From Mariprofundus sp. EBB-1 (GTDB taxonomy: Bacteria > Pseudomonadota > Zetaproteobacteria > Mariprofundales > Mariprofundaceae), in contig NZ_RCFQ01000017.1 of NCBI RefSeq assembly GCF_003665155.1, positions 1 through 59,291 of the forward strand: a stretch of 59,291 nt of DNA, written 5' to 3'. The translations under genes and the position numbers were made by a program. Position 1 is the first letter of the stretch. Each line of letters opens with the position of its first letter. Positions 34,911 through 45,437 of the stretch are shown here, piece after piece. The notes beneath the pieces are model-generated. The model was given only the letters and a program-made list of their open reading frames with translations, had not been told where the DNA came from and did no database searches.

Positions 34911-35876
34911 ATGCATGCAACACTGCCATTATTGGAGAAGACTGACTTCCCTGCCATCACTCGTGGAAAGCTCAATACGCTGCAAGTTAATTTAGGCTAT
35001 TTATGTAATCAAACCTGTTTACATTGCCATGTGGATGCAGGTCCTCGTCGCACCGAAATTATGGATAAAAAAACGGTGCAAACCGTGCTTGACTACTTGC
35101 GTGTGCAAGATATCAAAACACTTGATTTGACCGGTGGCGCACCGGAGATGAATCCGCATTTTGTTTACCTCGTAGAGCAGGCTAGTGCTATGGGCGTGCG
35201 TATCATTGATCGCTGTAATCTGACCATTCTGGAAGAAGAAAACTATAGTGATACAGCTGAGTTTCTTGCGAAATACAAGGTCGAAGTCGTTGCGTCGCTG
35301 CCCTGTTATTTGAGTGATAATGTTGATGCTCAGCGTGGTAAAGGGGTGTTTGATAGCAGCATTAGAGCCATTCAGCGTTTGAATGCACTTGGGTATGGTA
35401 TCGAGGGTTCAGGTTTAACATTAACACTGGTCTATAATCCACAGGGGGCAAACCTGCCGCCTTCACAGAGTGAACTGGAAATTGCTTATAAACGCGAACT
35501 GCACTTGCGTTTTGGCATTGTTTTTAATCAACTCTTTACCATCACCAATATGCCCATAAAACGTTTTGGTAGTACACTTATTTCACAAGGAAAATTCGCA
35601 TCTTATATGCAGCTACTTAAAGAAGTTTATAGCGAAAAAAACCTCGATGGACTGATGTGTAAAAGCTTAATAAGCGTGGACTGGAGAGGTTATGTTTATG
35701 ATTGTGATTTTAATCAAATGCTGAATCTTCCCATACACAGAGAGGGTGGTTTAGCTACGCACCTTTCTGAACTGATTGAACAGGAGATCTCCGGATCTTC
35801 AATTGTTGTGATGGATCACTGTTATGGCTGTACTGCCGGCCAGGGTTCCAGTTGCGGCGGAGCATTGGAGGAGTGA
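34911..35876 (+). CDS. arsS: Arsenosugar biosynthesis radical SAM protein ArsS
   Basis: 321 residues. The radical SAM cluster motif is CNQTCLHCH near residues 34-42, followed by LDLTGGAPEMNP and a SPASM-like C-terminus (MCKSLISVDWRGYVYDCDFNQM, HCYGCTAGQGSSCGG). This matches the ArsS family, which adds the deoxyadenosyl group to dimethylarsenicals on the way to arsenosugars. Its stop codon overlaps the next gene by one base. The arsenic role is supported by arsM two genes later. Confidence 0.92.
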   Translation: MHATLPLLEKTDFPAITRGKLNTLQVNLGYLCNQTCLHCHVDAGPRRTEIMDKKTVQTVLDYLRVQDIKTLDLTGGAPEMNPHFVYLVEQASAMGVRIIDRCNLTILEEENYSDTAEFLAKYKVEVVASLPCYLSDNVDAQRGKGVFDSSIRAIQRLNALGYGIEGSGLTLTLVYNPQGANLPPSQSELEIAYKRELHLRFGIVFNQLFTITNMPIKRFGSTLISQGKFASYMQLLKEVYSEKNLDGLMCKSLISVDWRGYVYDCDFNQMLNLPIHREGGLATHLSELIEQEISGSSIVVMDHCYGCTAGQGSSCGGALEE

Positions 35877-36523
35877 TGGCACTACATGATGAACTTGAAG
35901 CGTTTAACCGCGGATTCGTAGCCCAGGTTCCCGATAATATTGTAAGGACCATGAATGATGCGGTGCAGATACTACAATCTTCAGGCTTAACCGAACGGGC
36001 TTTACAAGCTGGACAACAACATGCTCCTGATTTTGATCTCCCTGAACTGAATGGGGAGAAAGTAAAATTGTCTGAAGCGCTAAAGCGTGGTGTGGTTGTT
36101 ATCACATTCTATCGAGGCAGCTGGTGTCCATACTGTAATTTGGAGATGCAGGCCTTGCAGAAAGCGCTGCCTGACATTGAAGCTGCGGGCGCTCAATTGA
36201 TCGCCATAGCTCCCGAACTGCCGGAATTTGCTGCGCAAACGCGGGATAAAGGAAACCTTACGTTTCCGCTGTTGAGTGATCAGAACAATGAAACTGCCAA
36301 GCAATATGGTTTGGTATTCACCTTACCTGAAAGCTTGAGGCCTATTTATGAGAGTTTTGGCATCGATTTGCCAGCCAGTCACGGCAATGATCATTTTGAA
36401 CTACCTATGCCTGCGACCTATATTATTGCACCTGATGGCAAGGTGATGAGTGCTTTTGTAGATGTGGATTATACCAAACGTATGGAACCATCTGACATAA
36501 TAAAAATATTGAAAACCATTTAA
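35876..36523 (+). CDS. Peroxiredoxin-like (AhpC/TSA) protein of the arsenic operon
   Basis: 215 residues from the ATG at 35876, which overlaps the arsS stop. A thioredoxin fold has the redox motif CPYC in FYRGSWCPYCNLEM near residue 80, followed by LPMPATYIIAPDGKV. The N-terminal helix region resembles peroxiredoxin-like proteins that accompany arsS/arsM. It may supply reducing power or detoxify peroxide. Fifteen bases separate it from arsM. Confidence 0.82.
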   Translation: MALHDELEAFNRGFVAQVPDNIVRTMNDAVQILQSSGLTERALQAGQQHAPDFDLPELNGEKVKLSEALKRGVVVITFYRGSWCPYCNLEMQALQKALPDIEAAGAQLIAIAPELPEFAAQTRDKGNLTFPLLSDQNNETAKQYGLVFTLPESLRPIYESFGIDLPASHGNDHFELPMPATYIIAPDGKVMSAFVDVDYTKRMEPSDIIKILKTI

Positions 36524-36537
36524 CTACGGAGAAAACA

Positions 36538-37368
36538 ATGAGTGTAAAAGCTGATAATGTGCGTCAGCACGTGCGTAAATCTTATGCGGAAGTGGCAGAT
36601 GCCAGTAATGATGGTGATTGTTGCGGTGTGGAATCCAGTTGCTGCGGCGTCTCTGATGATGCGGCGATCAATACACTGATCTCCACACGCTTGGGTTACT
36701 CTGAAGATGACCTGGCTAATGTACCGGATGGTGCCGATATGGGCCTTGGCTGTGGTAATCCGCGGGCAATTGCTTCACTGCGTCCGGGTGAAGTGGTTAT
36801 TGATCTTGGTAGCGGTGGTGGTTTTGATGCATTTCTGGCGGCCCGTGAAGTTGGTGAAAGCGGTCATGTGATTGGCATCGACATGACCCCCACCATGTTA
36901 TCCAAAGCGCGTAACAACGCCGAAAAAGGAAAATTCAGCAATGTAGAGTTTCGCCTTGCGGAGATTGAATACCTGCCGATTGCAGATAACACTGCCGACA
37001 TCATTATTTCTAACTGTGTGATTAATCTTTCACCGCATAAGGAACTGGTATTTGCTGACGCATTTCGTGTGTTGAAACCGGGTGGACGCCTGGCCATCTC
37101 CGATGTGGTGGCAACAGCGGAGATGCCGGATGAGATGAAAAATGATCCGATATTGCATGCAGGCTGTATGGCTGGTGCATCCATGATTGATGTGCTGGAG
37201 ATCATGATGGCCGATGCCGGTTTTGAGCAAATTAGTATTATTCCAAAAGACAGTTCGCGCGAATTTATTCGTGACTGGGCACCCGGTCGGGGCGTGGAAG
37301 CGTATGTTGTATCGGCTTACATTGAAGCGAAGAAGCCGGGCGGTTGCTGTTCAGGGGCTTCTTGCTGA
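36538..37368 (+). CDS. arsM: Arsenite S-adenosylmethionine methyltransferase
   Basis: 276 residues. The methyltransferase glycine motif is VIDLGSGGGFDAFLAA near 86-101. The arsenic-binding cysteines of ArsM are recognisable: DMGLGCGNP (Cys near 70), SNCVINLSP and HAGCMAGA. An N-terminal Cys pair cluster (CCGVESSCCG) and a C-terminal CCSGASC are also present. It turns arsenite into methylated arsenicals. Last gene of the ars operon; 112 bases then lead to the next operon. Confidence 0.93.
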   Translation: MSVKADNVRQHVRKSYAEVADASNDGDCCGVESSCCGVSDDAAINTLISTRLGYSEDDLANVPDGADMGLGCGNPRAIASLRPGEVVIDLGSGGGFDAFLAAREVGESGHVIGIDMTPTMLSKARNNAEKGKFSNVEFRLAEIEYLPIADNTADIIISNCVINLSPHKELVFADAFRVLKPGGRLAISDVVATAEMPDEMKNDPILHAGCMAGASMIDVLEIMMADAGFEQISIIPKDSSREFIRDWAPGRGVEAYVVSAYIEAKKPGGCCSGASC

Positions 37369-37480
37369 TAGTCTAAGGTCTCAAACCCTGCAATTTCTAT
37401 GGTATTCTGTATGTTAGCCTGTATGTTTTCAACTATGAAAGTTTCATATAAACAAAGAAGAGAGTGAGGTTGATTTTCTC

Positions 37481-39109
37481 ATGCGTTTAGCGAAAACGCT
37501 GCGTAATAATCTCCTTTTCTTATTGGTGGAATCCGGTTCCCAGATACAGCTATTGCAACAATATACCGAAGAGGAAGATGCAAGCCTGATTCAGCGTGTT
37601 ATGGAACGCCGAGGTTATGCATATAATCTTAACCTGCGCATTCAAAACAGCTGCATAGAAATGCTGAGTGATAGCCAGATTGGTGAAGGCGTGACCATTC
37701 GCACTGTCGGTATTATTGCAACAGAGCTTACAAATATCACGATTCTATCTCGTGATTGCATACAGCAACTTGGTGATTTACGGCATAATCACCGGCTTGA
37801 TTTGAAAGCTTATCAGCCGGCACTGCGACAGGTCTGTAAAAGTATGGTGCTGATTGAAGATGCCTTGATGGGAAGTGATACACGACTTGCTCTTAAAATC
37901 GGTCACGGTGAGTACAAACTGAACCGAATCTCTCAAAAGTTATTGAAAGCGTTTACAGCTCAGTTGAAGCAGAAAAAATATACAGAAGATCTGGTTACCG
38001 GTCTGTTTGTTGCGCATAGCCTTGGCCAGATGGGTGATGCACTGTTGCGCATCAGCGAATCGATTATTTCCAACAATATTGGTCAACCTATGGATATGCA
38101 GCGTTATCACGCAATGCAGGAGACTATCACCGCCTGGAAGGGCGAAAATATGATGGACAATATAGATATTCAGCAGCTTGCAGAAACACGCTCTGGCAGT
38201 GGTATCTCATCAATTCAAGAGATAGACAGTGATCAGCCTCGGGTGATCTATAAAAGTGGAGAGAAACGCAAACTTAAAGAAGAACTGCATGGAGTGGAAA
38301 CCTGGCATGCAGTGTATCCAGGTTTGGCACCGCAAGTACTGGCTTACAACAAACGCAGTGATGGAGCATCCTTATTGATTGAGCACTTGAACGGGATGAC
38401 GCTGGAGCAAATTGTACTGCATGAACCGATGCGTATGATGACTCAGGCGATTCAAGCGCTTGGTAAAACAGTGACCTCGGTTTGGAAAACTAGCCGAACC
38501 AATATTCCTGTCTCTGCCGGTTTTATTCGCCAGACACGCAAACGTCTGGCTGATGTTTATGCCGTGCACCCATCATTTCGGCAGGGCAATGCACGGATTT
38601 GTGCATCGACGCTATCTACATTTGAGTCGTTGCTTGTAGCTGCTGAAAAAATTGAGAAAAAGCTGTCTCTTCCGAACAGCGTTCTGATCCATGGCGATTT
38701 CAATGTTGATAACATCCTGTATGACCCGGAAAGCAAAAGCATTCGTTTTATCGACCTGCATCGCTCAACCTATATGGATTATGTACAGGATGTGTCGGTA
38801 TTTATGGTCTCAAATTATCGATTGCAGGTGTTCGATAGCTCTATTCGCCGCCGTATTCGTAAACAGGTGTGTGATTTTTATGCTATTGCACGAAAGTATG
38901 CAAAAAAGAACAATGACCATACATTTGAGGTTCGCCTGGCTCTTGGCCTGGCGCGCTCATTTGCTACCTCAACACGTTTTATTCTGGACGAATCCATGGC
39001 ACAGCGTATGTTTTTGCGTGCGCACTATCTGTTGTTACAGGTAACGCAATGTGACATGAAGAAACCCCAGCGTTACCGATTGCCAATCAAGGAGATATTC
39101 AGTGACTAA
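37481..39109 (+). CDS. PhoU-like / aminoglycoside phosphotransferase-fold fusion
   Basis: 542 residues. The first 230 are helical and look PhoU-like (two stretches of LxxLGDLRHNHRLDL and VAHSLGQMGDALLRI character). From about 240 an APH-type kinase follows, with VLIHGDFNVDNILYD near residue 404 and IRFIDLHRS near 425; the catalytic HGD, Asn and Asp are present. It resembles small-molecule kinases such as ThrB or choline kinases, but its substrate is unknown. It overlaps the next gene by eight bases, and together with five genes downstream forms one operon. Confidence 0.8.
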   Translation: MRLAKTLRNNLLFLLVESGSQIQLLQQYTEEEDASLIQRVMERRGYAYNLNLRIQNSCIEMLSDSQIGEGVTIRTVGIIATELTNITILSRDCIQQLGDLRHNHRLDLKAYQPALRQVCKSMVLIEDALMGSDTRLALKIGHGEYKLNRISQKLLKAFTAQLKQKKYTEDLVTGLFVAHSLGQMGDALLRISESIISNNIGQPMDMQRYHAMQETITAWKGENMMDNIDIQQLAETRSGSGISSIQEIDSDQPRVIYKSGEKRKLKEELHGVETWHAVYPGLAPQVLAYNKRSDGASLLIEHLNGMTLEQIVLHEPMRMMTQAIQALGKTVTSVWKTSRTNIPVSAGFIRQTRKRLADVYAVHPSFRQGNARICASTLSTFESLLVAAEKIEKKLSLPNSVLIHGDFNVDNILYDPESKSIRFIDLHRSTYMDYVQDVSVFMVSNYRLQVFDSSIRRRIRKQVCDFYAIARKYAKKNNDHTFEVRLALGLARSFATSTRFILDESMAQRMFLRAHYLLLQVTQCDMKKPQRYRLPIKEIFSD

Positions 39110-39998
39110 CCTTAAAATTGGAGTCATCGGTTTGCCGGGGAAATGGTCCAGTGAAGTGCTTGCCCAAGCGGTAATGATGCGCACCGGGGCACCATGCCCT
39201 GTGATTGATATACAGGATGTGTGGCTTGATCTGGCCGATAATGCTTTACGGTACGGAGGTCTTAATCTGTGCGATTTTGATGGATTATTGGTTAAAAAAA
39301 TAGGTTCGGAATATAGTCCCAATTCACTTGATCGACTGGAGTTGTTACGTGTAGCAGAAGCTGCAGGTGTACGCGTGTTCAGCCCTGCATTGAATATCTT
39401 ACGCCTGATTGACCGATTAAGCTGCACCGTTACCCTCCATAATCATGCAATCCCGATGCCTCCGACCTGCATTACGGAACATAGTGAAAAAGCGCTTGAA
39501 ATGGTAAACCGCTTTGGTAGCGCAGTATTCAAACCACTTTATTCAACCAAGGCGCGCGGCATGATGGTAATTGATGCCGCTGATTCAGAGACAGTGCAAC
39601 GCCAGCAGATTTCCAGCTTTCAGCAGCAGCACCCGATGATGTATATCCAGAAAAAAATAGTTCTGCCGGGCCGAGATCTTGGTATGGTCTTTTTAGGTGG
39701 TGAATATCTGGGTACATATGCGCGGGTATCGCAGTCGGATACTTGGAATACCACCATCCTCAGTGGTGGAAAATATGCTGCATATAAGCCTTCACAGGAG
39801 TTGATTGATCTGGCCTATGCGGCTCAGAAACCATTTAATATGGACTTCACTACTGTCGATGTGGCTGAATCAGAAACGGGGCCCATAGTCTTTGAAGTGT
39901 CAGCTTTTGGAGGTTTTCGAGGTGCAAAAGAGGGAATCGGTATTGATGTTGCAACGCTCTATGTTGACTATGCAGTAAAAACATTGAAAGGTGGTTAA
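39102..39998 (+). CDS. GAK-type ATP-grasp enzyme
   Basis: 298 residues of RimK-like ATP-grasp type. The ATP-binding segments are AVFKPLYSTKARGMMVID and MYIQKKIVLPGRDLGM, and a metal-binding segment is PIVFEVSAFGGFRGAKEGIG. It fits the ATP-grasp member of the GAK arrangement (Grasp, Amphi-Trp, Kinase). Such enzymes join a carboxylate to an amine using ATP, but the acceptor is not known. It begins inside the previous gene, and the kinase gene starts two bases after its stop. Confidence 0.8.
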   Translation: MTNLKIGVIGLPGKWSSEVLAQAVMMRTGAPCPVIDIQDVWLDLADNALRYGGLNLCDFDGLLVKKIGSEYSPNSLDRLELLRVAEAAGVRVFSPALNILRLIDRLSCTVTLHNHAIPMPPTCITEHSEKALEMVNRFGSAVFKPLYSTKARGMMVIDAADSETVQRQQISSFQQQHPMMYIQKKIVLPGRDLGMVFLGGEYLGTYARVSQSDTWNTTILSGGKYAAYKPSQELIDLAYAAQKPFNMDFTTVDVAESETGPIVFEVSAFGGFRGAKEGIGIDVATLYVDYAVKTLKGG

Positions 39999-39999
39999 A

Positions 40000-41199
40000 A
40001 TGAGTCACGGAATAACTAAGGAAGAGCTGCGCAGCACGATGCTTGCAGATGTTAGCCTGTGTGAAGAGACACTAGAGCTGGCGCTACCAGAAATGCAGAT
40101 TCTAATTCGAAGCAATTCAATGCAGTTGCTGAATATATTGCGTCATTATTTCCAACATATCGTGTCTCCTATTAAGAGTACTTCATCTGTGAATGATGGT
40201 ATTGCGATAGAAGTAGTAGCGATAGAATCTCCAGTCATCAATCTTGACTTGCCGTTGCATGACTGGTCACGTGAAGCAGGTAAACGTGGAAAGAAAGATG
40301 CATATCTCGACCTGGATGACGGACGTTGCATTTATAAGGTGCGAACCGGCATGACTTTTTTGCAAAGTTTGCAGCATCGGATTGCAGCAGGCCCATGTAT
40401 TACGAATAGCAATCAAGTGATTAATTTCATTAATAACCAATATATAAACCTATTACAGCAACGTGGTTACTTAATCTGTCATGCAGCAGCATTGGCTGAA
40501 AATAATAGAGCTATCGCTATTGCCGGTTTTTCCGGTGGTGGAAAATCGACCACGATGCTGCATTTGATGTCTGATCCGCGTTTTGATTATGTCACGAATG
40601 ATCGCCTATTTATTCGTGCAGATGAAGAGGGCATGTGTGCGCGTGGCATCCCTAAACTTCCGCGTGTGAATCCAGGTACGCTGCTGCATAACCCGCAATT
40701 GAAAGAGATCTTACCCCAAGAGCGCATTGCCGAGTTACAAGACATACCACAGCAAGCATTGTGGAATCTGGAAGAAAAGTATGATGTCGATATTGCCGCG
40801 GTATATGGTGAATCACGTTTTTCCGCTGAGCCTGAACTGGCACACTTTCTGATTCTGAATTGGTCACACGATAGTCAGGTTCAAACACAGGTTACCGAGG
40901 TGAATCTGGCAGAACGAAGCGAACTGCTCGATGCCATTATGAAATCTTCAGGGCCATTTTATCAATATGCCGATGGTAGTTTCTATCGTGATCATACGCA
41001 TCTGAATCGAGATGCCTATATTTGCATGCTTGCAGGGGTTCATGTCTATGAAGTGAGCGGTCGTGTTGATTTTGAATGCGTACAACAATTTTGTCTACAG
41101 CAGTTATGTGAAATCTCACCATCATACAATACAGTCACAAAATCAGCTTCCGAAACAGTAAGGGTCGATGATGGGCCTAAAATAAGATATCCGGTTTAA
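40000..41199 (+). CDS. HprK-related kinase (GAK system, HprK-related kinase B type)
   Basis: 399 residues. The P-loop AIAGFSGGGKSTT near residue 172-184 and the downstream VTNDRLFI and GIPKLPRVNPGTL follow the HPr kinase/phosphorylase C-terminal domain. In HprK this phosphorylates a Ser of HPr; no ptsH is here. The extended N- and C-terminal parts are not of the standard HprK type. The ATG at 40000 with GAAAGGTGG upstream is preferred over the GTG at 39991. A kinase of unknown target inside the GAK-like operon. Confidence 0.8.
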   Translation: MSHGITKEELRSTMLADVSLCEETLELALPEMQILIRSNSMQLLNILRHYFQHIVSPIKSTSSVNDGIAIEVVAIESPVINLDLPLHDWSREAGKRGKKDAYLDLDDGRCIYKVRTGMTFLQSLQHRIAAGPCITNSNQVINFINNQYINLLQQRGYLICHAAALAENNRAIAIAGFSGGGKSTTMLHLMSDPRFDYVTNDRLFIRADEEGMCARGIPKLPRVNPGTLLHNPQLKEILPQERIAELQDIPQQALWNLEEKYDVDIAAVYGESRFSAEPELAHFLILNWSHDSQVQTQVTEVNLAERSELLDAIMKSSGPFYQYADGSFYRDHTHLNRDAYICMLAGVHVYEVSGRVDFECVQQFCLQQLCEISPSYNTVTKSASETVRVDDGPKIRYPV

Positions 41200-41211
41200 T
41201 AAGGTAGATAT

Positions 41212-41913
41212 ATGAGTACCAATTATGCGGTCTTTATTCGGCATGGGGATTATCATCATCAAGCCGCCACACCGGGAGCCTATCAACCTTTTCCTCTTAC
41301 AAATGAAGGGGAAGAACAGGTGGAAAACTGTATCGCGAAACTCATTCGATTCAGTCAGCAGCATGATTTAACCATCGCTCCTACACTACACAGCTCAATT
41401 CTGCTGCGTGCCTGGAGCACCGCAGAAATTATTCGTCGGAAACTGGCAACTATTATTCCGAATGAAAGCTATTCACTGGTCGAAACAGAGCAGTTGTGTG
41501 AGCGATCAGTTGGTAGTCTGGCCAATCTTTCTATCTCCGAAATCGAACAGGTCGTGCAGGATGATCCTCGTTATGAAAGACCACCTTCCGGGTGGAAATC
41601 TGATAGTTATTATCGGCTACCATATCCGGGTTCAGAGTCATTGATGCAGGCAGGCGAACGCGTGTCGGCCTACATCAATCAGGTAATGTCTACACTGCCT
41701 GAAAATGCATCCTTAATGCAGTTATTTATAGGTCACGGGGCAGCATTTCGGCACGCTGCTTGTGATCAATCCATGTTGGGTTTTGATGATATTAAAAAAC
41801 TTAGCATGTTTCACGCTGAACCAATCTATTTTACACTGAATGAAGATACAGGGTGGCAACACCGCGCAGGCGAATGGAAAATACGTTCGCAGCATTCAAA
41901 TTATACGGACTAA
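41212..41913 (+). CDS. Histidine phosphatase family protein
   Basis: 233 residues. VFIRHGDYHH has the catalytic RHG motif and LFIGHGAAFRH the second catalytic His, so the active site is complete. It resembles phosphoglycerate mutase-like phosphatases rather than SixA in length. Placed between the kinase and the metallophosphoesterase, it may reverse the phosphorylation. The stop overlaps the next start (TAATG). Confidence 0.85.
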   Translation: MSTNYAVFIRHGDYHHQAATPGAYQPFPLTNEGEEQVENCIAKLIRFSQQHDLTIAPTLHSSILLRAWSTAEIIRRKLATIIPNESYSLVETEQLCERSVGSLANLSISEIEQVVQDDPRYERPPSGWKSDSYYRLPYPGSESLMQAGERVSAYINQVMSTLPENASLMQLFIGHGAAFRHAACDQSMLGFDDIKKLSMFHAEPIYFTLNEDTGWQHRAGEWKIRSQHSNYTD

Positions 41914-43286
41914 TGATGACAAACAAGAAAAAGCAATGTTCTCTACCCGATTACCATGGCCTCAAATGGCTGGATGATTCTTTACCTATAGCCTTGCCTG
42001 AGACCACGCGTGACTGGCTTGATTGTAGTAAACACGGACTTAGGCAACGCAAGACCAGCGGTTTGAAAAGCCGAAGTACGGTAAAATCACTACTGCAATC
42101 GCATGATTGGCAGTGGCCACATCGTTCGACCGTTTTTATCTCCGATCTACATGCTGATGGTGATGCACTGTTAGCATCTCTGGTTGCCAGTGGCGGTATA
42201 AAGAAAACAGGTAAGGATGATTATCACTTTAAACTTACAGAACAGGGACGATCCATGCTCTTTATCTTTGGCGGTGATTTCTTTGATAAAGGTCCGAGTA
42301 ATCTTCGTCTGTTGCGTGTATTGCACATGTTTATCAAAACAGGAGCACGTGTGCGACTCCTAGCAGGTAATCATGATATTCGTGTTTTATTCGGTATGCG
42401 CAGTGTAGGCCAGACAGAAGATCCACATAACGGTCATTTTTTTATCCGAATGGGAGCCAAAGCGATTCCTTTTCTGCTTGAAATTCGGGATGAGTATCTG
42501 TCTGACAACAATGCGCTGAAAGCGATGCCTGATGAAGAAACCTGTATCAAACGTTTGTTTCCGACTGAGGCCTGGTGGCAGCAGTTTCCAGAGATGGCCT
42601 CATGGGTGATGCCTCCAGAATCTATCAGCAGGGAGATGGCTAAAATTAAACATAAGGCTGAGCGCTTCGAGATGTTGTGTGAACAGGCCGGACTGAGTCT
42701 GCGTGAAGCCTATGCAGCAGCAGTTAAATGGCAGCAGTTGTTTTTATCACAAGAAGGGGAATTCTACTGGTTTTTCAAGCGTATGCGACTTGCATATCGC
42801 AAGGGTTCATTCCTGTTCGTACACGCAGGTATCGATGACCGAATTGCAGTGATGTTACGTGATAATAATACCGGCTTTTTGAATCAGCAGTTCAAGCAAC
42901 AGATTCAGGGGAGTCCCTTTGAATTTTATTACGGACCTGTAGCGAACACTATCCGTACCAAATACCGTACGATAGATATGCCATTGTCCGGAATTGGTGC
43001 CAAACAAGTGCGTGATGCGGGTATACATGCCATCGTGCATGGACACCGTAATTTACATCGAGGTCAACGTATTGCTCTGCGAAAAAAACTGCTTCATTTT
43101 GAATGTGATGTGACATTGGATCGTCACTCCCGACGAAAAGAAGGGCTACGCGGTGCAGGTGCTGGCGTTACCCTTGTTCAACCCTCCGGTTATATTCTAG
43201 GAATCAGTACAGACTATCGCGATATTAAAGTGTTTCATCCCGAATCCATCTTGGCGGACGCAGGAGATTTTCATGCAACAAAGTAA
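41913..43286 (+). CDS. Calcineurin-like metallophosphoesterase
   Basis: 457 residues with all five PPP-type motifs: VFISDLHADGD, FGGDFFDKGP, LLAGNHDIR, FLFVHAGIDD and IVHGHRN, which hold the two metal ions. PPP-like enzymes of this size remove phosphate from proteins or nucleotides. It is the second predicted phosphatase in the operon. The start is the ATG at 41913 or 41916; the gene overlaps its neighbours on both sides (14 bases with the next). Confidence 0.88.
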   Translation: MMTNKKKQCSLPDYHGLKWLDDSLPIALPETTRDWLDCSKHGLRQRKTSGLKSRSTVKSLLQSHDWQWPHRSTVFISDLHADGDALLASLVASGGIKKTGKDDYHFKLTEQGRSMLFIFGGDFFDKGPSNLRLLRVLHMFIKTGARVRLLAGNHDIRVLFGMRSVGQTEDPHNGHFFIRMGAKAIPFLLEIRDEYLSDNNALKAMPDEETCIKRLFPTEAWWQQFPEMASWVMPPESISREMAKIKHKAERFEMLCEQAGLSLREAYAAAVKWQQLFLSQEGEFYWFFKRMRLAYRKGSFLFVHAGIDDRIAVMLRDNNTGFLNQQFKQQIQGSPFEFYYGPVANTIRTKYRTIDMPLSGIGAKQVRDAGIHAIVHGHRNLHRGQRIALRKKLLHFECDVTLDRHSRRKEGLRGAGAGVTLVQPSGYILGISTDYRDIKVFHPESILADAGDFHATK

Positions 43287-43572
43287 GAAAGTTTTTCATC
43301 ATGAATCGTTGGAAGATACAAAATCTCTGCGAAGCCTTATGCAAGCGGTTACCGATGGCCTGGAAAGTGGTGAATTAAGTTTCAGCGATGACAGTGATGA
43401 GATTATCATGATTCCAAAAGGGTTGCTGCATTTCAAGCTTGCTGCTGCTCAGGAAGAAGGACGCAACCGCATAAATATCCGCGTGACATGGCATGATGAT
43501 GTTGATACGAAGCCGGCAAAAAAATCATTAGCCATTCGCAGCAAACAGAAAGAAAAGAGAAAGGGTGGCTAA
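43273..43572 (+). CDS. Amphi-Trp domain-containing protein
   Basis: 99 residues. It fits the small amphi-Trp domain found with GAK kinases: a helical first half (SLEDTKSLRSLMQAVTDGLESGEL), strands with IIMIPKGLLHFKLAA, and the end IRVTWHDD with the Trp. The tail is Lys-rich (KKSLAIRSKQKEKRKGG). It could be the carrier or substrate acted on by the kinase and ATP-grasp enzyme; this is inference. Last gene of the operon. Confidence 0.75.
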   Translation: MQQSKKVFHHESLEDTKSLRSLMQAVTDGLESGELSFSDDSDEIIMIPKGLLHFKLAAAQEEGRNRINIRVTWHDDVDTKPAKKSLAIRSKQKEKRKGG

Positions 43573-43617: not shown

Positions 43618-43660
43618 CTACTCTCGTCTAAGCATCAGTAATTCAAGAGAGGATATGAAT

Positions 43661-43915
43661 ATGAAATCAATGACAACATTAGCTATCGCACTGCTGCTTG
43701 CCTTGGGTCTGTCTGCTGCACCTGCATTTGCAGGCCATCATGATATGAACCCGTGCAACCCATGCTCAATGAAAAAAACGATGAATCCATGTAACCCGTG
43801 CGCCATGCAACATAAGATGAACCCATGTAATCCATGTGCCATGAAAAAGCATGCCAACCCATGCGATATGCAACATAAAATGAATCCGTGTAATCCTTGT
43901 TCTAAAGGGCATTAA
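43661..43915 (+). CDS. Exported Cys-rich NPCNPC repeat protein
   Basis: 84 residues. A signal peptide is clear (MKSMTTLAIALLLALGLS...AFA, cleaved before GHHDMNP). The mature part is four MNPCNPC(A/S)M-type units and one single NPC unit, spaced by KKT, QHK and KKH. Nine cysteines fall in about 60 residues, with Met and His between them. This composition suggests a periplasmic metal-binding protein, probably for a soft metal such as copper, but there is no direct evidence. The ATG at 43661 lies eight bases after AGAGG; an ATG at 43655 is too close to it. Confidence 0.8.
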   Translation: MKSMTTLAIALLLALGLSAAPAFAGHHDMNPCNPCSMKKTMNPCNPCAMQHKMNPCNPCAMKKHANPCDMQHKMNPCNPCSKGH

Positions 43916-44669: not shown

Positions 44670-44707
44670 AATGCCGACTTCCACATCATGACCGGAGTAC
44701 CGGCATT
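44670..44707 (+). promoter_or_regulatory. Hairpin-forming leader before the NPCNPC-cytochrome gene
   Basis: AATGCCG near 44670 and CGGCATT near 44701 can pair, and CATCAT/ATGATG pair in a competing register. This lies just before the strong GGAGGAG site at 44714-44720. A further 7-bp hairpin (ATCTCCT/AGGAGAT) is upstream near 44618. Possible transcript regulation; not proven. Confidence 0.3.
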
Positions 44708-44726
44708 TATGATGGAGGAGATATCG

Positions 44727-45437
44727 ATGAATAATATATTAAGATTAATTTACGCCATGCTTATCAGCATAGGTTTGTTTAGCACCCCGGCCCTGGCTGG
44801 GTCACATGCGAACCCATGCAATCCATGCGGGATGCAAAAGCATATGAACCCATGTAACCCATGCAGTATGAAAAAACATATGAACCCGTGTAACCCATGC
44901 GCCATGAAAAAACATATGAATCCGTGTAACCCATGCAGCATGAAAAAACATATGAATCCGTGTAACCCATGCAGCATGAAAAAACATATGAACCCATGCA
45001 ATCCATGCGCCATGAAAAAACACTCCAATCCTTGCAGCATGAAACCCAATCCTTGTTCCATGAAGAACCCTTGCTCGATGGATGAGGATGCTGCTAATCA
45101 AAAGACACCGATTCGCAAACCTGCATTCAAAAACTATCAGGAAGCTGCGTCCCTCGGTGCCAAAATGTGGAAAGATGAAAGTTTAGGTACATCAGGATTG
45201 GCATGTCTCTCATGTCATGCAGATCATGAACTGTTGAATTTAGATCGTAATCAGAATTTCCCACATTATGTCAAGATGGTAGGTGATGTAGTGACACTGG
45301 ATCAGATGATCAACTACTGCATGCTTAATCCAATGAAAGGAAAACAGTTTGGAAAAAATTCAAAAGAACTCACTGCGATGGCGGCATATTATCGCGCCTA
45401 TCGTATGCAGTTCATGAAAGAACAACGCGCAAAGTAA
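44727..45437 (+). CDS. Exported NPCNPC-repeat cytochrome c
   Basis: 236 residues from the ATG at 44727, which follows GGAGGAG by eight bases; a longer reading at 44688 is less likely. A signal peptide (ending PALA-GSH) precedes six NPCNPC units of 12 residues each, mostly [12 protein letters not shown], then three short NPCSM units. A monohaem cytochrome c domain follows, with CLSCH at residues 160-164 and a possible Met ligand in MLNPMKG. It is thus a periplasmic electron carrier joined to a thiol-rich, probably metal-binding, region. The arrangement is unusual. Confidence 0.85.
44808..45023 (+). repeat. Six 36-bp tandem repeats encoding NPCNPC units
   Basis: Units run 44808-44843, 44844-44879, 44880-44915, 44916-44951, 44952-44987 and 44988-45023. 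Units 4 and 5 are identical at every base. The others differ by few, mostly silent changes, which indicates recent duplication or gene conversion. The reading frame is kept throughout. Confidence 0.92.

Follow-up and report, generated by a model that had tools for sequence, protein, structure and literature searches.

The six genes at 37481-43572 of the window, the 59,291-nucleotide stretch of Mariprofundus sp. EBB-1 DNA that was analysed, form an ordinary, complete core GAK operon that is, if anything, reduced. Judged from sequence, the operon is probably a phosphate/polyphosphate homeostasis module. The apparent link between GAK genes and phosphate or polyphosphate genes is well supported by gene neighbourhoods across relatives. 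This context is visible in the relatives only and was beyond the reach of the original prediction, which was made from the letters of the window. It provides a directly testable role for a set of families whose names in NCBIfam give no function.

The region comprised six co-directional open reading frames, A to F, which were confirmed as real by reading of the frames and the sequence (Table 1). The genome has a size of 2.88 Mb. As the original prediction had described, all six genes overlapped or lay within 13 bases of each other. A/B and B/C overlapped by 8 bases each, D/E by 1 base and E/F by 14 bases, and C and D were separated by a gap of 12 bases. The start of gene E was read from the sequence as the ATG at 41913, within TAATG; an alternative upstream GTG start at 41853 is less likely.

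Table 1. Genes of the GAK operon, with positions counted from the first letter of the window.
Gene	Product	Length (aa)	Position	Strand	Basis
A	PhoU-like helical N-terminal region and APH-type kinase domain	542	37481..39109	+	Pfam profiles
B	GAK ATP-grasp ligase, RimK/MptN/LysX-like	298	39102..39998	+	TIGR04356
C	HprK-related kinase B, PEPCK/HprK fold	402	39991..41199	+	TIGR04355
D	Branch-1 histidine phosphatase	233	41212..41913	+	PF00300
E	Calcineurin-like metallophosphoesterase, weakly ApaH/PPP-like	457	41913..43286	+	PF00149
F	Amphi-Trp domain protein	99	43273..43572	+	TIGR04354

Profile searches with A to F bore out every domain call of the original prediction, and its assignment to GAK was confirmed by three NCBIfam cut-offs. 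Gene B reached 424.5 bits with grasp_GAK (TIGR04356, cut-off 300), gene C 348.1 bits with HprK_rel_B (TIGR04355, cut-off 200) and gene F 49.7 bits with the amphi-Trp model (TIGR04354, cut-off 31). Gene A matched PhoU (PF01895) with 31.6 bits and APH (PF01636) with 34.6 bits, above cut-offs of 23.5 and 23.2, respectively. Gene D held 58.5 bits with His_Phos_1 (cut-off 21.7) and gene E 34.8 bits with Metallophos (cut-off 21.5). Catalytic motifs were conserved in every enzyme of the operon when aligned with relatives. The kinase motifs IHGDFN-DN and DLHR of gene A were kept in 82 relatives, and the Walker A motif SGGGKST of gene C was likewise conserved. Conserved motifs were RHG and GHGA-RHA in gene D and DxH, GGDxxDKG, AGNHD, HAG and GH in gene E.

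Gene B matched PDB profiles of RimK and LysX at about 1e-18 and the MptN model with 140.8 bits; CofF was matched as well. With the RimK family TIGR00768 it scored 100.8 bits, under the cut-off of 143.4. It carries an invariant motif of its own, FEVSAFGGF. Gene B is predicted to be a RimK-related ligase on its own branch. For gene C, the Pfam profile search returned no meaningful match. Its structure model (pLDDT 90.9) was closest to PEPCK in Foldseek, with 3.5e-7 compared with about 3e-5 to 1e-4 for HprK/P entries. Gene F is the sole amphi-Trp protein of the genome and scored 23.9 with Pfam PF20068, under the cut-off of 27. Its model consists of one helix followed by four strands (pLDDT 82.6), with no significant PDB match in a structure search. 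A conserved F-x-x-x-S-x-x-D segment is located just before the helix, and Ser12 of the protein is conserved.

Relatives were collected from several searches. Scanning named genomes gave 496 confirmed relatives, from which 80 loci were kept, and clustering of neighbouring genes without prior assumptions used 87 loci after removal of duplicates. About 87 distinct loci repeated the GAK genes, usually in unchanged order, so the grouping of the operon is not due to chance and the six-gene linkage is conserved elsewhere. The original prediction regarded the window copy as enlarged by a second kinase and two phosphatases, and this did not hold. Among loci with enough contig, gene A was present in 78 of 80 by clustering, and by profile D was present in 64 of 68, E in 60 of 63, C in 74 of 79 and F, usually the last gene of the operon, in 58 of 63. 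GAK operons thus have A, D and E as standard parts. The definition of the system is corrected to include the PhoU-APH kinase and both phosphatases in its core. NCBIfam holds no GAK-specific model for A, D or E. In the open-licence papers searched, no mention of GAK, amphi-Trp or the HprK-related kinase was found.

Loci L038 and L134 showed a split order, A-B-D-E followed by Nudix, C, SixA-Nudix and F, indicating that C and F can be separated from D and E. Locus L076, on a contig labelled 'Halobacteria archaeon' with a GAK/CHAD cluster, grouped tightly with gammaproteobacterial loci in the tree and is probably a mis-binned or mislabelled MAG.

The GAK ATP-grasp gene was detected in 7 of the 78 genomes searched from the class and in 13 of 398 genomes sampled from the phylum. 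Such patchy carriage would suit an anti-phage or stress cassette. However, none of the six proteins matched a PADLOC model at E 0.01, one scan revealed no relatives on viral contigs, and the zetaproteobacterial copies formed one clade with a support of 0.99 in the A+B+C tree. A defence cassette is therefore extremely improbable. The nearest named relatives of the window copy were Mariprofundaceae and other Zetaproteobacteria. The single clade likely reflects either a single entry of GAK into the Zetaproteobacteria or common inheritance with many losses.

Several additional genes accompanied the core in relatives. A Nudix hydrolase preceded gene A in 41 of 76 loci, a SixA-type phosphatase fused to Nudix was located between C and D in 42 of 73, and a GAK CofD-like protein (CofD_rel_GAK, TIGR04357, 543 bits) was found near GAK in 29 of 67. 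Unlike many relatives, the window operon comprised none of the three. The profile search for TIGR04357 was negative for the whole genome, which marks the window copy as a reduced form. The CofD-like protein, together with the similarity of gene B to MptN and CofF, would fit synthesis of an F420-like cofactor or metabolite. The substrate phosphorylated by the kinases would then be a small molecule, a phospho-acyl group would be moved by the CofD-like protein and B would add an amino acid, with phosphatases and Nudix serving salvage or tailoring. However, CofD is missing near most loci as well as from the window genome, and enzymes building a carbon skeleton, such as oxidoreductases or synthases, did not recur among the neighbour families. 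Such a pathway is very unlikely.

The recurrent non-core neighbours were for the most part phosphate genes. Unbiased clustering of the 87 loci yielded CHAD, ParA, a Na/Pi cotransporter with a PhoU domain and a CorB/HlyC-type family, for which the name CorB was given by inspection of the sequence and not from a profile. Two groups were left uncounted: families 13, 14, 16, 18 and 19, which resemble synteny common to Roseibium and its near relatives, and families 9-12 and 15, which resemble reading frames of the opposite strand. CHAD domains bind polyphosphate (PMC6537752). With a frequency of about one CHAD gene per genome, 0.29 occurrences were expected within the fetched flanks of the 87 loci, compared with eight observed (Poisson P about 1e-9). 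Counted as five arrangements, the P value was 1.4e-5. The CHAD-positive loci occupied at least five separate positions in the A+B+C tree, with differing arrangements, and L038 added a sixth, with CHAD at about 9 kb from GAK.

CHAD genes were repeatedly paired with a gene for a ParA-type ATPase (L042:3271-5561, L075:1094-3324, L118, L119, L125 and L127-L132). Such pairs also occurred away from GAK, and in L118 and L119 they were beside or near PPK1. The pair is a candidate for a ParA-driven positioning system for polyphosphate granules. ATP-driven positioning of these granules was described as a still open question in a 2025 review (PMC13052382).

The densest phosphate neighbourhood was detected in L060, L105 and L107, which belong to one gammaproteobacterial lineage. 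Here, GAK shared an island with PPK1, PhoU and genes of the Pst type. The upstream part, of which L105 shows only a portion, held a PhoB-like regulator, two ABC ATPases, permeases, PhoU-LMWPc, ParA, CHAD, CorB, CofD and Nudix. It was followed by A-B-C, SixA-Nudix, D-E-F, HisP, a Na/Pi cotransporter or DUF47 with PHO4 (Pit), and PPK1. In L107 the island also contained an OprP-type porin. PPK1 was located within 10 kb of GAK in three genomes, all of one lineage. At the genome level, PPK1 was present in 41 of 44 GAK genomes compared with 150 of 199 genomes of the phylum background sample, in which the gene is common anyway. The three GAK genomes without PPK1 carried PPK2. The 44 genomes were chosen by hand and include all CHAD-positive loci; the CHAD statistic was therefore taken on the full 87 loci. 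Sites resembling a PhoB box and scoring at least 12 of 16 were found upstream of 11 of 57 GAK starts and of 8 of 265 control genes. The resulting P value of 5e-5 holds at threshold 12, one of six tried with an assumed consensus, and the enrichment was significant in the upper tail only, with P 0.06 in a rank test. GAK promoters of the L022/L023 type have such a site.

In the window itself, profile searches of the flanks detected no phosphate genes, with no PPK, CHAD or phosphate transport gene adjoining the operon. CHAD was absent from the genome. With the same consensus, no site resembling a PhoB box was found upstream of the operon (best score 10.5, P 0.48). In front of gene A, at 37400-37440, a direct repeat CTGTATG looks like a PhoB-type repeat but has a spacing of 12 bases and not 11. 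Contig C12 of the same genome carried PPK1, PPK2, Pit, DUF47, PhoU and PstB/A-type genes together with a PPX/GppA-like gene, the last identified by inspection only. As the window holds no local phosphate signal, the phosphate role is carried over from the relatives by orthology.

Directly upstream of GAK, at 34911-37368, genes of an arsenosugar type were present, encoding an ArsS radical SAM protein (463 bits), an AhpC/TSA protein and an arsenite methyltransferase. Downstream, 43655-43915 and 44688-45437 each encoded a protein whose start resembles a signal peptide and which contains many Met-Asn-Pro-Cys-Asn-Pro-Cys repeats; the second protein also has a fused cytochrome c domain of the SoxA/TsdA type. 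A tie of GAK to either group was rejected, since both were absent from the recurrent neighbour families of the relatives.

For a phosphate/polyphosphate homeostasis module, the chemistry may consist of a mark that is written on a protein or metabolite and later erased. Sensing of phosphate, or of the state of Pst/PhoU, would fall to the PhoU domain of A. The acceptor of the marks would be a metabolite or a small protein, for which F is the best candidate. It would receive phosphoryl marks from the kinases A, with an APH fold, and C, with a PEPCK/HprK fold, and amide-linked, probably glutamyl, marks from the RimK-type ligase B. D and E, along with Nudix and SixA-Nudix where present, may strip these marks, or they may hydrolyse phosphoanhydrides that are formed together with polyphosphate. 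As a net effect, storage or use of polyphosphate would be tuned to the phosphate supply.

In line with the reversible phosphorylation cycle proposed by the original prediction, with F as candidate substrate, many of the same parts could serve a generic reversible protein modification with no special tie to polyphosphate, in which C phosphorylates F as HprK does HPr, B glutamylates F, and D and E reverse both. The frequent presence of F at the end of the operon, the conserved segment before its helix, the PEPCK/HprK fold of C and the RimK-like nature of B are consistent with this. However, C is nearer in fold score to the small-molecule enzyme PEPCK than to HprK, and F is a candidate substrate only. 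Generic modification also leaves the neighbouring phosphate genes and the CofD-like, Nudix and SixA-Nudix enzymes unexplained, and it is unlikely. Support for the alternatives falls in the order of generic protein modification, cofactor pathway and defence. A more specific form of the phosphate module would be a phosphate-status signalling circuit. In such a circuit, A, C and the ATP-grasp enzyme would mark amphi-Trp or a metabolite by phosphorylation or glutamylation, the histidine phosphatase, metallophosphoesterase and Nudix would erase the mark, and polyphosphate storage would be under its control. A circuit of this kind, which would be functionally equivalent to the control by inositol pyrophosphates in eukaryotes, is quite unlikely.

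Among known systems, the GAK set of NCBIfam (TIGR04356, TIGR04354, TIGR04355 and TIGR04357) is the closest, as the window copy exceeded the cut-offs of three of the four families in one operon. The set includes the CofD protein that the window genome is without, and it is smaller than the conserved unit, which also comprises A, D and E and often Nudix and SixA-Nudix. Gene C has the P-loop and the PEPCK/HprK fold in common with HPr kinase/phosphorylase, but its longer N-terminal lobe aligns with PEPCK and the GAK operon contains no HPr gene. Eukaryotic inositol-pyrophosphate signalling by Asp1/PPIP5K likewise combines an ATP-grasp kinase and a pyrophosphatase around phosphate status (PMC9765450). 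This is a likeness of parts only, as gene B is closest to RimK/LysX ligases and not to inositol kinases. In Streptomyces, a ppk-CHAD-Nudix operon belongs to the Pho regulon (PMC8003754). For this ppk/pptA/SLI_4382 operon, no gene for an ATP-grasp enzyme, HprK-like kinase, PhoU-APH or amphi-Trp protein was reported (PMC8003754). PPK is grouped there with CHAD, Nudix and enzymes of the histidine phosphatase type, a phosphate-linked arrangement also seen in the GAK superlocus of L060, L105 and L107. Genes for Nudix enzymes and histidine phosphatases rank among those most often found downstream of ppk (PMC8003754).
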